From Candidatus Chlorohelix allophototropha (GTDB lineage Bacteria; Chloroflexota; Chloroflexia; Chloroheliales; Chloroheliaceae), in assembly GCF_030389965.1 (NCBI RefSeq), contig NZ_CP128399.1:2826799-2890798 (forward strand): DNA of 64,000 nt, written 5' to 3'. Shown one piece after another: positions 6,338 to 9,444 of the stretch. Made by a program: the position numbers and the translations under genes. Position 1 is the stretch's first letter, and the number at the start of each line of letters is the position of its first letter. The notes under the pieces are model-generated. The model was not told the DNA's origin. It worked only from the letters and a program-made list of their open reading frames with translations, and did no database searches.

Positions 6338-6492
6338 ATGCCGTTGCACCCATCCCCGCCACCCCACGCGGGCGTGTCCAGCCCCAACCCCCCAATTTTC
6401 GGGCGGCGCTTCGCGCGTACGGAATTCCCTTTACTCCTTACCCCCTTGACCTTACCCTCTCCCCAGATTTTTGGGTTAATTTAGAGGAAAGA

Positions 6493-6538
6493 GCGCCAGA
6501 GGCTCAGAGATCAGAGGATTCAGAGTTCAGAGTGGCGC
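6493..6538 (-). repeat. Degenerate CTCTGA repeat within a GCGCCA/TGGCGC inverted repeat
   Basis: On the minus strand, the last codons of the STAND-FGE gene and the bases after it contain five CTCTG(A/G) units about 8 bp apart, bounded by the inverted repeat TGGCGC/GCGCCA (6493-6498, 6533-6538). It could fold as a hairpin 3' of the gene. Its position right after the putative variable region recalls the hairpins found after DGR variable repeats, but loop length (34 nt) is unlike those. Confidence 0.45.
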
Positions 6539-9357
6539 ATAGGGGCACAAACCACCACCCGAAAACCATAATTGAGGAAATCGTTGTAAGGGTTGAAGAG
6601 GTTGCGGTACACGCAGGACGCATTAGCCTGATTGCTGCCGTCAGAGCCGCCCCGCAGCACTCGACTATCTCCGCTACCATCCACCACCACTTCCGAAGGC
6701 TTCCCATACTTGTTCAAGCACCACTCCCACAAGTTTCCGCTCATATCCAACGCCCCGCATTTCGCCGCCCCTTGCGGGTACATGCCCACGCCCACCGCCC
6801 GGTTCAGCCCCGCCTCTGCGGTATTGGCATAGCCTTCTCGCCACTCCTCGCCCCATGGGTACTCCCGCGCTTCCGCGCCCCCCTGCGCCGCCCACTGCCA
6901 TTCCCATTCCGTAGGCAGCCGTATCTGCGCGTTTTCACCCACCACCAAGGGCGTACCCTGCGCATTTCCCGGATTGCCCAATTGTAAGCCCCGCATCCGT
7001 TTGTTCAACCACCGCCCATATGCCACCGCCTGATACCAAGAGATTGTATCGCGCGGGTTATTCCACGTTTTGGTGCGCTGTTCAGCCAGCTTTTGCGGTT
7101 GGTAATCCTTCGGAAATCCTGCCCACCACTCCCGGTTCTGGTAGCCATCCCCCGCTTTCACAAAGGCTTCATACTGCCCATAGGTTATCTGATATTGCCC
7201 GATGTAGAACGGCGCTACCTTGAAAGTAGCCTTTTCTATTTCCACTTCCCCGCCCGGCGCAACAGGCAGCCACGCTATTTCGGGCGTGCCTATCCCTCGC
7301 CGAGTATCCCCGATTATGTTCAGCCTATCTCCTATCTCTCGTCTCCGCGCATGTGTAGTTTGCAGTAGGGTTATTTCCCGCAGCAGTCGCGCCTGCTCAG
7401 GCTCAATGAATTCTTCTTCCAACACCTCCGGCTTCCACTCCAAACGCTGCTTCATCTCGTACACCAGCAGCAACCGCTCTTGCTGCCAACGCCACGAGTC
7501 GGGTTTGCCCCGCTTTAACCATTCTGCCGCCGCGCTTTTCACCTGCCGTTTGAGGATTAAATCTTCCTGCACCTCCTCCAGCCATTGCCGCAGCCGTTTC
7601 CAGTTTCGGAATAACGCCTCGTGCGCCACCTCCACTTGTGTTTCATCCATCACCAGCAACCGCGCCTGCGTGAAGGCTTCCACCAGTTCCAATTCCGCTG
7701 TCCCGAAACAGGCATGCTCAACGCGCTGGCGCGTGGCAGCAAACTGCCCCTCTACTTCGTTGACCGCCACCAACTCCCGAAAGACCCGTCCCAACAGCCG
7801 CTTTTTGGCTTCTTCCTCTCCCGGTAGCTGCGCAAAAACTTGCTCAGCCCGCTTGCCGATTGCCCCCGCTACCCCGCCCAACCCCTCGTAATCCGCATAG
7901 GTCAGGCAATGGTCGCGCTTCACCGCCACCTTATACAACTCGTCCAGCAAGTACGCCAGCAACGCCAACGACCCGGCAGCGCTGCCCGTGTCGTGCAGAA
8001 TCAGCGTGGGCAAGCCTCCCTCAAATGCCAGTCCCGCCATTTCCGCCGGACGCTCTATCATTTGGGACAAGGCGGCAGCGGTAGGCGCGGCTAGGCTGAA
8101 AAAGCCCGGTCGCAGCAGTTCCGCCATTATGGGGATTTCGATGGCGCGATGCACAAAATCGTGCCGTAGCGTGGCTACCACCCGCAAGCGCGGATGCTTT
8201 GCCAGTGCGCCTAGCATAGCGGTAAACGGTTCTATCGCATCTTGTTTTGCCAGCGTGAACAGTTCCTCAAATTGGTCAATGAACAGCAGCGTTTCCGCCC
8301 ATTCCGGCGCTTTTACCGTGTCCAATGAAGCCTTGAGTATTTCGCCGAGATAGGCAGGTTCGCGCCGTACATTCTCAATAAAGGTTCTCTTCTTGTCGGG
8401 ATAATCAAGCGGATGCGGGCGTAACGACTCGAAGGTATTCAGAAAGGCATCAAACAACGCCTCAAACGGTTCTTTTCCGGGCGTGAACTGCACCCCCCGC
8501 CAATCTTTGCTGCCGGGAATTGCGCCTGTTTCCAAACGAGGCAACAAGCCCGCGCCCACCAGCGAGGATTTACCGCTGCCCGATGCGCCCACCACCGCCA
8601 CAAAGCGACTCTCCGCCACCTTTCGCACCAGCGCATCGGTCTCATGTTCGCGCCCGAAGAAGATAGGCGCGTCTTTCTTTTTGAAAGCGACCAAGCCGGG
8701 AAAGGGCGAACCATCCCATATAGTAGAAGTGAAAAGGGGCGTTGTTTCTGGCGTGGAATCAGGAATAGCAGGTACAAGCGGACGCTTTAGCAGTTTCTGG
8801 ACAAGGCTTTCAAGGTCGGTCTCGAACTTTTCCTTGAACTCGGCAGGGCTGGCGTAGCTATTCACGCCACGCTGTATATACCCGGTAGCAGGGTCGTAGA
8901 ACATGTCGCTCTTGAAAAAGTCTTGCACCTTCTTGTACTGCGCTATGCCTTTATCATCGTCAAAATCAAAAAGCTTTTTCTCGGTGCGATGATAGATGAG
9001 CGTATAAGTTTGGGGATTGCTCAGCGCGTCCAGCAATTCATAGTGCGTGCCGGAAGGATATGCTACGCCTTTATAGCTAAAGGGCGTACCCATGCGCGAC
9101 CACAAGATTACCACCACAATGTCACACTTGGACGGTTTGGGCAAACCCTCGTCAATCGCTTCTTGCGGAGACTTGCTGGCGATCATCGGCGTACCTGCGC
9201 CAAGCTTGTCCCATGCCACCGCGCGGAAACTCACCTTGTCGCGTAAAGAGGGGCGGTTGGGCAGATTCGCCAGAACGTCCAACGCCAATTTACGTTCTTC
9301 GTTGACATCACCCGGCGATGAAAGAAACACCTTAACCTGTGGTATCTGCTCTGGCAT
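6520..9357 (-). CDS. DUF4062 - nSTAND NTPase - FGE/C-type-lectin domain protein
   Basis: A 945-residue multidomain protein. Residues about 6-195 are DUF4062 (VKVFLSSPGDVNEERKLA), a Rossmann-like domain at the N-terminus of many STAND proteins. Residues about 215-680 are an nSTAND1-type NTPase: PFPGLVAF, FFGRE, Walker A GASGSGKSS (257-265), Walker B LLFIDQFEELFT (357-368). Residues about 693-938 are an FGE-sulfatase/CLec fold (LPTEWEWQWAAQGG, YPWGEEW, ALDMSGNLWEWC, LRGGS, GFRVV). No TM segment or signal peptide: cytoplasmic. STAND proteins are switch-like ATPases that oligomerise on sensing a trigger; in bacteria many defend against phage or control signalling. Here the FGE domain would be the sensor and DUF4062 the effector; this is inference. 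ATG 9357 fits the GGAG better than ATG 9363. The gene stands alone, between unrelated housekeeping genes. Confidence 0.9.
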   Translation of the reverse strand: MPEQIPQVKVFLSSPGDVNEERKLALDVLANLPNRPSLRDKVSFRAVAWDKLGAGTPMIASKSPQEAIDEGLPKPSKCDIVVVILWSRMGTPFSYKGVAYPSGTHYELLDALSNPQTYTLIYHRTEKKLFDFDDDKGIAQYKKVQDFFKSDMFYDPATGYIQRGVNSYASPAEFKEKFETDLESLVQKLLKRPLVPAIPDSTPETTPLFTSTIWDGSPFPGLVAFKKKDAPIFFGREHETDALVRKVAESRFVAVVGASGSGKSSLVGAGLLPRLETGAIPGSKDWRGVQFTPGKEPFEALFDAFLNTFESLRPHPLDYPDKKRTFIENVRREPAYLGEILKASLDTVKAPEWAETLLFIDQFEELFTLAKQDAIEPFTAMLGALAKHPRLRVVATLRHDFVHRAIEIPIMAELLRPGFFSLAAPTAAALSQMIERPAEMAGLAFEGGLPTLILHDTGSAAGSLALLAYLLDELYKVAVKRDHCLTYADYEGLGGVAGAIGKRAEQVFAQLPGEEEAKKRLLGRVFRELVAVNEVEGQFAATRQRVEHACFGTAELELVEAFTQARLLVMDETQVEVAHEALFRNWKRLRQWLEEVQEDLILKRQVKSAAAEWLKRGKPDSWRWQQERLLLVYEMKQRLEWKPEVLEEEFIEPEQARLLREITLLQTTHARRREIGDRLNIIGDTRRGIGTPEIAWLPVAPGGEVEIEKATFKVAPFYIGQYQITYGQYEAFVKAGDGYQNREWWAGFPKDYQPQKLAEQRTKTWNNPRDTISWYQAVAYGRWLNKRMRGLQLGNPGNAQGTPLVVGENAQIRLPTEWEWQWAAQGGAEAREYPWGEEWREGYANTAEAGLNRAVGVGMYPQGAAKCGALDMSGNLWEWCLNKYGKPSEVVVDGSGDSRVLRGGSDGSNQANASCVYRNLFNPYNDFLNYGFRVVVCAPMRHSEL
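6568..6642 (-). other. Putative diversity-generating retroelement variable region (VR)
   Basis: Codons 906-930 of the preceding gene, between LRGGS and GFRVV, encode the lectin-fold loop that DGRs diversify in FGE-type targets. Fifteen of 25 codons end in C and 22 end in C or T; six are still AAY. The protein reads YRNLFNPYNDFLNYGFRVV, where a DGR template of the common FGE type would give Asn-rich YRN..NP.N.....GFRVV. Aromatic and aliphatic residues sit where AAY codons are expected. No reverse transcriptase or template repeat lies in this window, so the assignment is inference. Confidence 0.5.
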
Positions 9358-9444
9358 TAGCATACTCCGGTGTAAGTTTATCGGTAACGCAACTACGGTT
9401 TAATTATACCCAAAGGGGGAAAGATTCGCTACTTGAAATAAAAC

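Follow-up and report, generated by a model that had tools for sequence, protein, structure and literature searches.

A remote diversity-generating retroelement target in Candidatus Chlorohelix allophototropha, with two stand-alone template repeats and a putative relic as the only trace found of a DGR reverse transcriptase

The window analysed here, a stretch of 64,000 nucleotides on contig C1 of the Candidatus Chlorohelix allophototropha genome, carries a gene whose protein joins a DUF4062 match to an nSTAND1 NTPase domain and ends in an FGE/C-type-lectin-like domain (Table 1). At the end of this last domain lies a variable region (VR) of the kind rewritten by diversity-generating retroelements (DGRs), followed by a short block that we call IMH-like by analogy, the name being borrowed from described DGRs (PMC12875486). 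The first codon of this block is mostly GGT in VRs and GGG in template repeats (TRs). In Chloroheliaceae and Anaerolineae alike (records L138, from 512, L139 and L140), many VRs are followed by blocks of CTCTGA repeats that extend beyond the stop codon, and these may represent a stem-loop or homing part of the target. From the domain architecture and the literature we infer a sensor role for the 947-aa protein; as read here from its architecture, it may also take part in antiphage conflict as a STAND/DGR protein, by phage protection or by death on ligand binding.

Table 1. Features of the target gene, the template repeats and the reverse transcriptase relic (positions are those of the window unless a contig, C, or record, L, is given)
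Feature	Position	Strand	Remarks
Window	C1:2826799-2890798		Ca. Chlorohelix allophototropha genome
DUF4062-nSTAND1-FGE target gene	6520..9363	minus	947 aa; ORF list and Pfam
DUF4062 domain	aa 11-110		Pfam E=6.7e-4, under the Pfam cut-off
nSTAND1 NTPase domain	aa 220-622		Pfam E=7.6e-107
FGE/C-type-lectin-like domain, C-terminal	aa 713-937		Pfam E=6.8e-35
Identical tract, 293 bp	6647..6939	minus	100% identical to plasmid paralog C5:19916-20208; ends 1-2 bases before the VR
Variable region (VR), 26 codons	6568..6645	minus	from Ser TCT of LRGGS to the codon preceding GFRVV
IMH-like block GGTTTTCGGGTGGTGGTTTGT	6547..6567	minus	3' of the VR; common to the TRs save a few bases
Block of CTCTGA repeats	6491..6541	minus	bounded by GCGCC and GGCGC; extends beyond the stop codon
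Non-coding stretch	6396..6450 (C1:2833194-2833248)	minus	95% over 55 bp to sequence immediately 5' of the TR cassettes
TR1, adenine-rich	C5:38870-38986		55-kb plasmid
TR2, adenine-rich	C2:643705-643821		chromosome 2
Structured RNA 3' of TR1	L031:18963-19160		about 190-220 nt
Structured RNA 3' of TR2	L033:8799-8985		about 190-220 nt
Putative RT relic GFVVYPDYRRLKRRNTVN	C2:639897-639950 (L033:4898-4951)	minus	18 codons

A sequence-only reading of this DNA had proposed a DGR variable region in the FGE domain of a STAND protein, on the basis of codon counts between LRGGS and GFRVV that prove exact (25 codons, 15 ending in C, 22 in C or T, six AAY), and the Pfam domains, the near-copies of the VR and their adenine bias bear the proposal out. 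It had also suggested a genome search for an adenine-biased near-copy; among 28 matches of the window VR to its own genome this search found two adenine-rich copies, TR1 and TR2. As they lie on two other replicons, the window VR is a remote target, as that reading had expected. The two TRs differ from each other at 6 of the 78 bases equivalent to the VR and, with their flanks, are 93% identical over about 390 bp. Both stand alone, without the rest of the FGE domain, TR1 past the stop of a TIR-NACHT-FGE gene and TR2 between unrelated genes, and a TATAAT sequence, a putative promoter, lies 5' of each. Just after TR1 (C5:39236-39825; L031:19236-19825) is a pair of DUF433 and DUF5615 genes, which may be a toxin-antitoxin-like arrangement.

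Compared with TR1 (78 nt, 31 of them adenines), the window VR shows differences at 14/31 template adenines and 6/47 other sites (Fisher p=0.0029), and because the differences are so concentrated at template adenines the pattern exceeds chance; codon bias by chance, considered as an explanation, is ruled out by the same counts. The bias is nevertheless the second weakest among the 14 VRs counted. Codon 6 is GAA in both TRs, C-initial in 11 of the 14 VRs and CAG in the window VR, as it is in three Anaerolineae TRs. Given this mismatch with TR1 and TR2, the latest rewriting of the window VR probably used another template, an older or lost TR, and altering two template bases to suit codon 6 lowers its non-adenine differences only from 6 to 4. 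The VR lies at the 3' end of a gene of C-type-lectin fold (assigned by Pfam), is followed by an IMH-like block and has near-copies elsewhere that differ chiefly at template adenines, and we class the feature as a DGR target and not as a complete DGR.

Searching the genome revealed at least 16 VRs in 15 genes, a lower bound since the search demanded the conserved 3' motif; a further 47-bp match at C3:161665 lies outside this count. By Pfam architecture the 15 genes comprise seven TIR-FGE (one with two FGE domains), three DUF4062-nSTAND1-FGE, two kinase-FGE, and one each of DUF4062-FGE, TIR-NACHT-FGE and TPR-FGE, and they are spread over four replicons (both chromosomes, the chromid and the plasmid). 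Clusters of TIR-FGE genes at C2:2085065-2090847 and C2:2144025-2147354 encode small effector-sensor proteins without a STAND domain, and in the clustered gene with two FGE domains each domain holds a VR.

Relative to TR1, the 14 VRs of equal length differ at 260 of 434 template-adenine sites and 89 of 658 others, with Fisher p values for single VRs from 4.4e-8 to 0.016. Against TR2 the counts are 272/434 and 117/658. Against the TR of Ca. Chloroheliaceae L227-5C they are 239/392 and 296/700, a weaker bias that is expected since that template has diverged. Mean column entropy is 1.62 bits at template-adenine columns as compared to 0.42 elsewhere, and the contrast persists inside codon position 1 and inside codon position 2. 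The two VRs of different length or register were excluded from these counts; ungapped against TR1 they differ at 25/31 adenines and 30/47 other sites, and at 18/31 and 19/47, that is, without bias in that register. Closest to TR1 are two plasmid VRs (15/31 adenines and 1/47 non-adenines; 18/31 and 2/47), while the remaining counted VRs carry 4 to 12 non-adenine differences. This higher load fits drift once rewriting had stopped, or rewriting from other templates.

The tract immediately upstream of the window VR bears on the timing. The window gene and its plasmid paralog are 76% identical across the entire matched region as compared to the full identity of the 293-bp tract, and their VRs differ at 23/78 bases, 18/31 template adenines and 5/47 other sites. 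The simplest account would be gene conversion between chromosome and plasmid, followed by rewriting of at least one of the two VRs before the tract changed in any other way, in which case the DGR would have worked not long ago. Alternatively, the conversion tract could merely have ended at the VR, with no later rewriting.

Each TR is followed by a sequence predicted to form a structured RNA, so that a template RNA with a structured 3' spacer, as belongs to a complete DGR, is present. The TR 3' flank is common to TR1, TR2, L227-5C and three Anaerolineae records found by exact pattern, and the records holding the structured RNA are, besides L031 and L033, L075, L138, L139 and L140. In an alignment of six sequences, the 51 predicted pairs are kept in 97.7% of cells, and covariation supports the fold: 13 pairs show changes in both partners as compared to a shuffled mean of 5.2 (none of 500 shuffles reached as high, and slid versions gave 0 to 3); the structure was taken from the same six-row alignment, which favours the fit, and the rows are related, two of them being nearly alike. 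In helix 1, which shows no double change, the structured RNA is predicted to base-pair with some of the IMH-like block. Both TRs match the resulting RNA model, having been among the sequences from which it was built. The model matches 2 of 158 genomes of the class and 3 of 400 of the phylum, our own genome being included both times, and this type of RNA is therefore rare. Its distant matches in genomes G373 and G226 adjoin a related DGR reverse transcriptase (RT) and Avd, the RT of G226 being cut by the contig end. Four loci gave no Rfam match at gathering scores, the TR cassette was unmatched in plasmid records, and the exact TR-RNA pattern was unmatched in viral contigs. In phage BPP-1 the spacer 3' of the TR has been described to fold, to recruit bRT-Avd and to prime cDNA (PMC12875486), and by analogy the structured RNA is probably its counterpart.

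The enzyme itself is another matter. Neither a DGR RT nor an avd gene, both of which the sequence-only reading had suggested looking for, was found in the genome; searches of the assembly with PF00078, with the L227-5C RT as query and with a profile of six DGR RTs returned no DGR RT save an 18-codon stretch that we take, from its sequence, as a relic of one. It shares 16 of 18 residues with the DGR RT of Anaerolineae genome CFX9 and 14 of 18 with that of L227-5C (tblastn). The whole-genome E-values for the match (C2:639897-639959) are weak, 0.0265 with the L227-5C query and 0.0386 with the profile, stronger values coming from tblastn of 11 sequence pieces only. A TAG precedes the relic, remnants of a Mutator-family transposase follow it, a histidine kinase gene lies on its other side, and TR2 is 3755 bp away on the opposite strand. 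For Avd, searched with the bAvd family, the best genome match had E=0.06 and two stops; the candidates at C2:688471 (E 0.06) and C3:293213 (E 0.64) are not convincing. PF00078 recovered four full-length RTs, all of group II intron type, three of which share an identical coding stretch on the two chromosomes (C1:989369, C1:2156707 and C2:668467); maturase and HNH domains were found on one of these three and on the fourth RT, on C4. All lie away from the TRs, the nearest at about 25 kb. An RT fragment at C1:992321-992685 was rejected as a DGR RT and left unclassified, being closer to group II RTs (tblastn E 1e-8 and 5e-5 with two of these, none below 0.05 with three DGR RTs).

Within the class, 52 of 158 genomes match a DGR RT at E<=1e-20, group II RTs included, and 27 do so below 1e-90; by these matches, a DGR RT is otherwise no rarity in the class. 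Among five Chloroheliaceae genomes only that of L227-5C has a DGR RT; G001 gave no RT match at 1e-10, and the matches in G003 and G004 are weak, to long-frame or partial RTs. In L227-5C, RT and bAvd lie directly ahead of the same TR cassette, and comparing its VR with its TR gives differences at 16/28 adenines and 0/50 other sites. Three Anaerolineae records show the end of a VR gene followed by the TR cassette; in CFX9 an RT and Avd lie on the same contig, about 3.4 kb off, while whole-genome searches of MAG-262 and MAG-264 gave no RT match at E<=0.001. Only MAG-262 was counted for bias (17/31 adenines, 0/47 others), since VR and TR differ in length in MAG-264 and CFX9. As VR and TR of MAG-262 differ only at adenines, that MAG may simply lack the RT sequence, and incompleteness is a plain explanation for both MAGs.

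We consider it very probable that the window VR is a remote variable region of a DGR that was active until not very long ago, its RT having then been lost. We infer that the past activity followed the known DGR mechanism and that the RT was lost rather than supplied in trans. TR RNA would have been transcribed from a stand-alone cassette made of a promoter-like 5' flank, the adenine-rich TR and the structured 3' RNA; a DGR RT with Avd would have copied it, placing random bases opposite template adenines; and the cDNA would have taken the place of the VR at the 3' end of genes with an FGE domain, yielding variant, presumably ligand-binding, tips in STAND, TIR and kinase proteins encoded on the two chromosomes, the chromid and the plasmid. 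With the RT subsequently lost, the VRs would now be frozen and drifting. The 1 to 12 non-adenine differences of 47 in Chlorohelix VRs, versus none in L227-5C and MAG-262, are as expected if rewriting stopped, and the 293-bp identical tract stopping at a diversified VR fits rewriting after recent gene conversion.

Alternatively, the DGR might still be working, with RT and Avd coming from DNA outside the assembly (a lost or unassembled replicon, a phage or RT-keeping cells of the population) and the cassettes acting in trans. We regard this as unlikely, although several observations speak for it. For instance, the two TR cassettes are well preserved (93% identical, flanks included), the plasmid VRs agree with TR1 at 46/47 and 45/47 non-adenine sites, and the two Anaerolineae MAGs likewise hold a VR and a TR cassette with no matching RT. 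Furthermore, RT-less loci of Thiohalocapsa PB-PSB1 are described as diversified, with intact-RT and broken-RT strains coexisting (PMC10907252). Against it, the relic fits loss, and most Chlorohelix VRs carry non-adenine differences, unlike those of L227-5C and MAG-262. The assembly, of five contigs (2.96 and 2.45 Mb; 375, 241 and 55 kb) with an estimated completeness of 95.28%, also matches replicons described as closed circles, the strain L227-S17, of filamentous cells, having a closed genome of two circular chromosomes, a chromid and two plasmids (PMC10972752). Since no DGR RT was found in a genome so described, the proposed DGR holds as a remote VR with adenine-biased TRs, while a presently working, self-sufficient DGR is unsupported.

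It is very improbable that a group II intron RT of the genome stands in for the DGR RT in copying the TR RNA: intact RTs of this type are present (three alike and one on C4), but they bear maturase and HNH domains, the nearest lies about 25 kb from the TRs, and Avd was not found. Adenine-specific error is not known of group II RTs. We give next to no credence to a reading with no DGR at all, in which the VR would be the usual C-terminus of FGE proteins whose paralogs change under diversifying selection, for while FGE paralogs are numerous in the genome and selection can focus changes on loop residues, the adenine-dependence is seen at the nucleotide level within codon positions 1 and 2, the TRs stand alone without the rest of the FGE domain and with a conserved structured RNA, and the same cassette lies beside a DGR RT and bAvd in relatives.

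Returning to the reading of a DGR that lost its RT, the finding would represent a natural loss-of-enzyme case, with two intact-looking templates, a conserved folded RNA, at least 16 targets and no DGR RT found. It makes testable how long adenine bias persists in VRs after rewriting stops, whether the targets serve as frozen receptors, and whether DGRs operate across replicons. Beside STAND-FGE targets, this filamentous phototroph contributes ones of the TIR-FGE, kinase-FGE and TPR-FGE types. Earlier work had already described nSTAND1-FGE proteins bearing DGR VRs, as well as remote targets and loci lacking an RT (PMC10907252), and a filamentous host fits the tie proposed there of such DGRs with a multicellular way of life in bacteria; metagenome surveys would be expected to overlook remote targets (PMC8144416). 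Our literature search found no paper on DGRs in Ca. Chlorohelix allophototropha, and the words "retroelement" and "reverse transcriptase" are absent from the main text of PMC10972752. As far as that search goes, what is new is a genome that keeps templates and numerous targets across four replicons while no DGR RT was found in it, and the stand-alone structured TR cassette. A more speculative reading, which we hold to be unlikely, is that the TR-RNA cassettes are stand-alone units which move with FGE targets among replicons and Chloroflexota classes without a resident RT and rely on RT supplied in trans, which the population gains and loses over time; if so, the system would consist of a target, a template and an enzyme that can each be separated from the others, and gain or loss of the RT could turn sensor diversification on or off.

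Among known systems, Bordetella phage BPP-1 likewise has a TR followed by a folding spacer RNA, and an IMH and stem-loop 3' of its VR; its order is avd-TR-spacer-brt, whereas the Chlorohelix TR and spacer stand alone, with no RT or Avd found (PMC12875486). The DGRs of L227-5C and CFX9 share the TR cassette with structured 3' RNA and FGE-domain VRs, and their RTs are of a related lineage, 70% identical to each other; they keep an RT and a divergently placed bAvd as compared to the 18-codon relic in Chlorohelix. The DGRs of Thiohalocapsa PB-PSB1, as described in PMC10907252, resemble those of Chlorohelix: they occupy several loci, including RT-less ones open to supply in trans, their VRs lie in FGE/CLec domains of proteins of the nSTAND1 and NACHT types, and their host is multicellular. 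PB-PSB1 differs in keeping a complete locus per DGR class, as compared to Chlorohelix, where no RT was found, and unlike PB-PSB1 many of the Chlorohelix targets are small TIR-FGE proteins distributed over four replicons.
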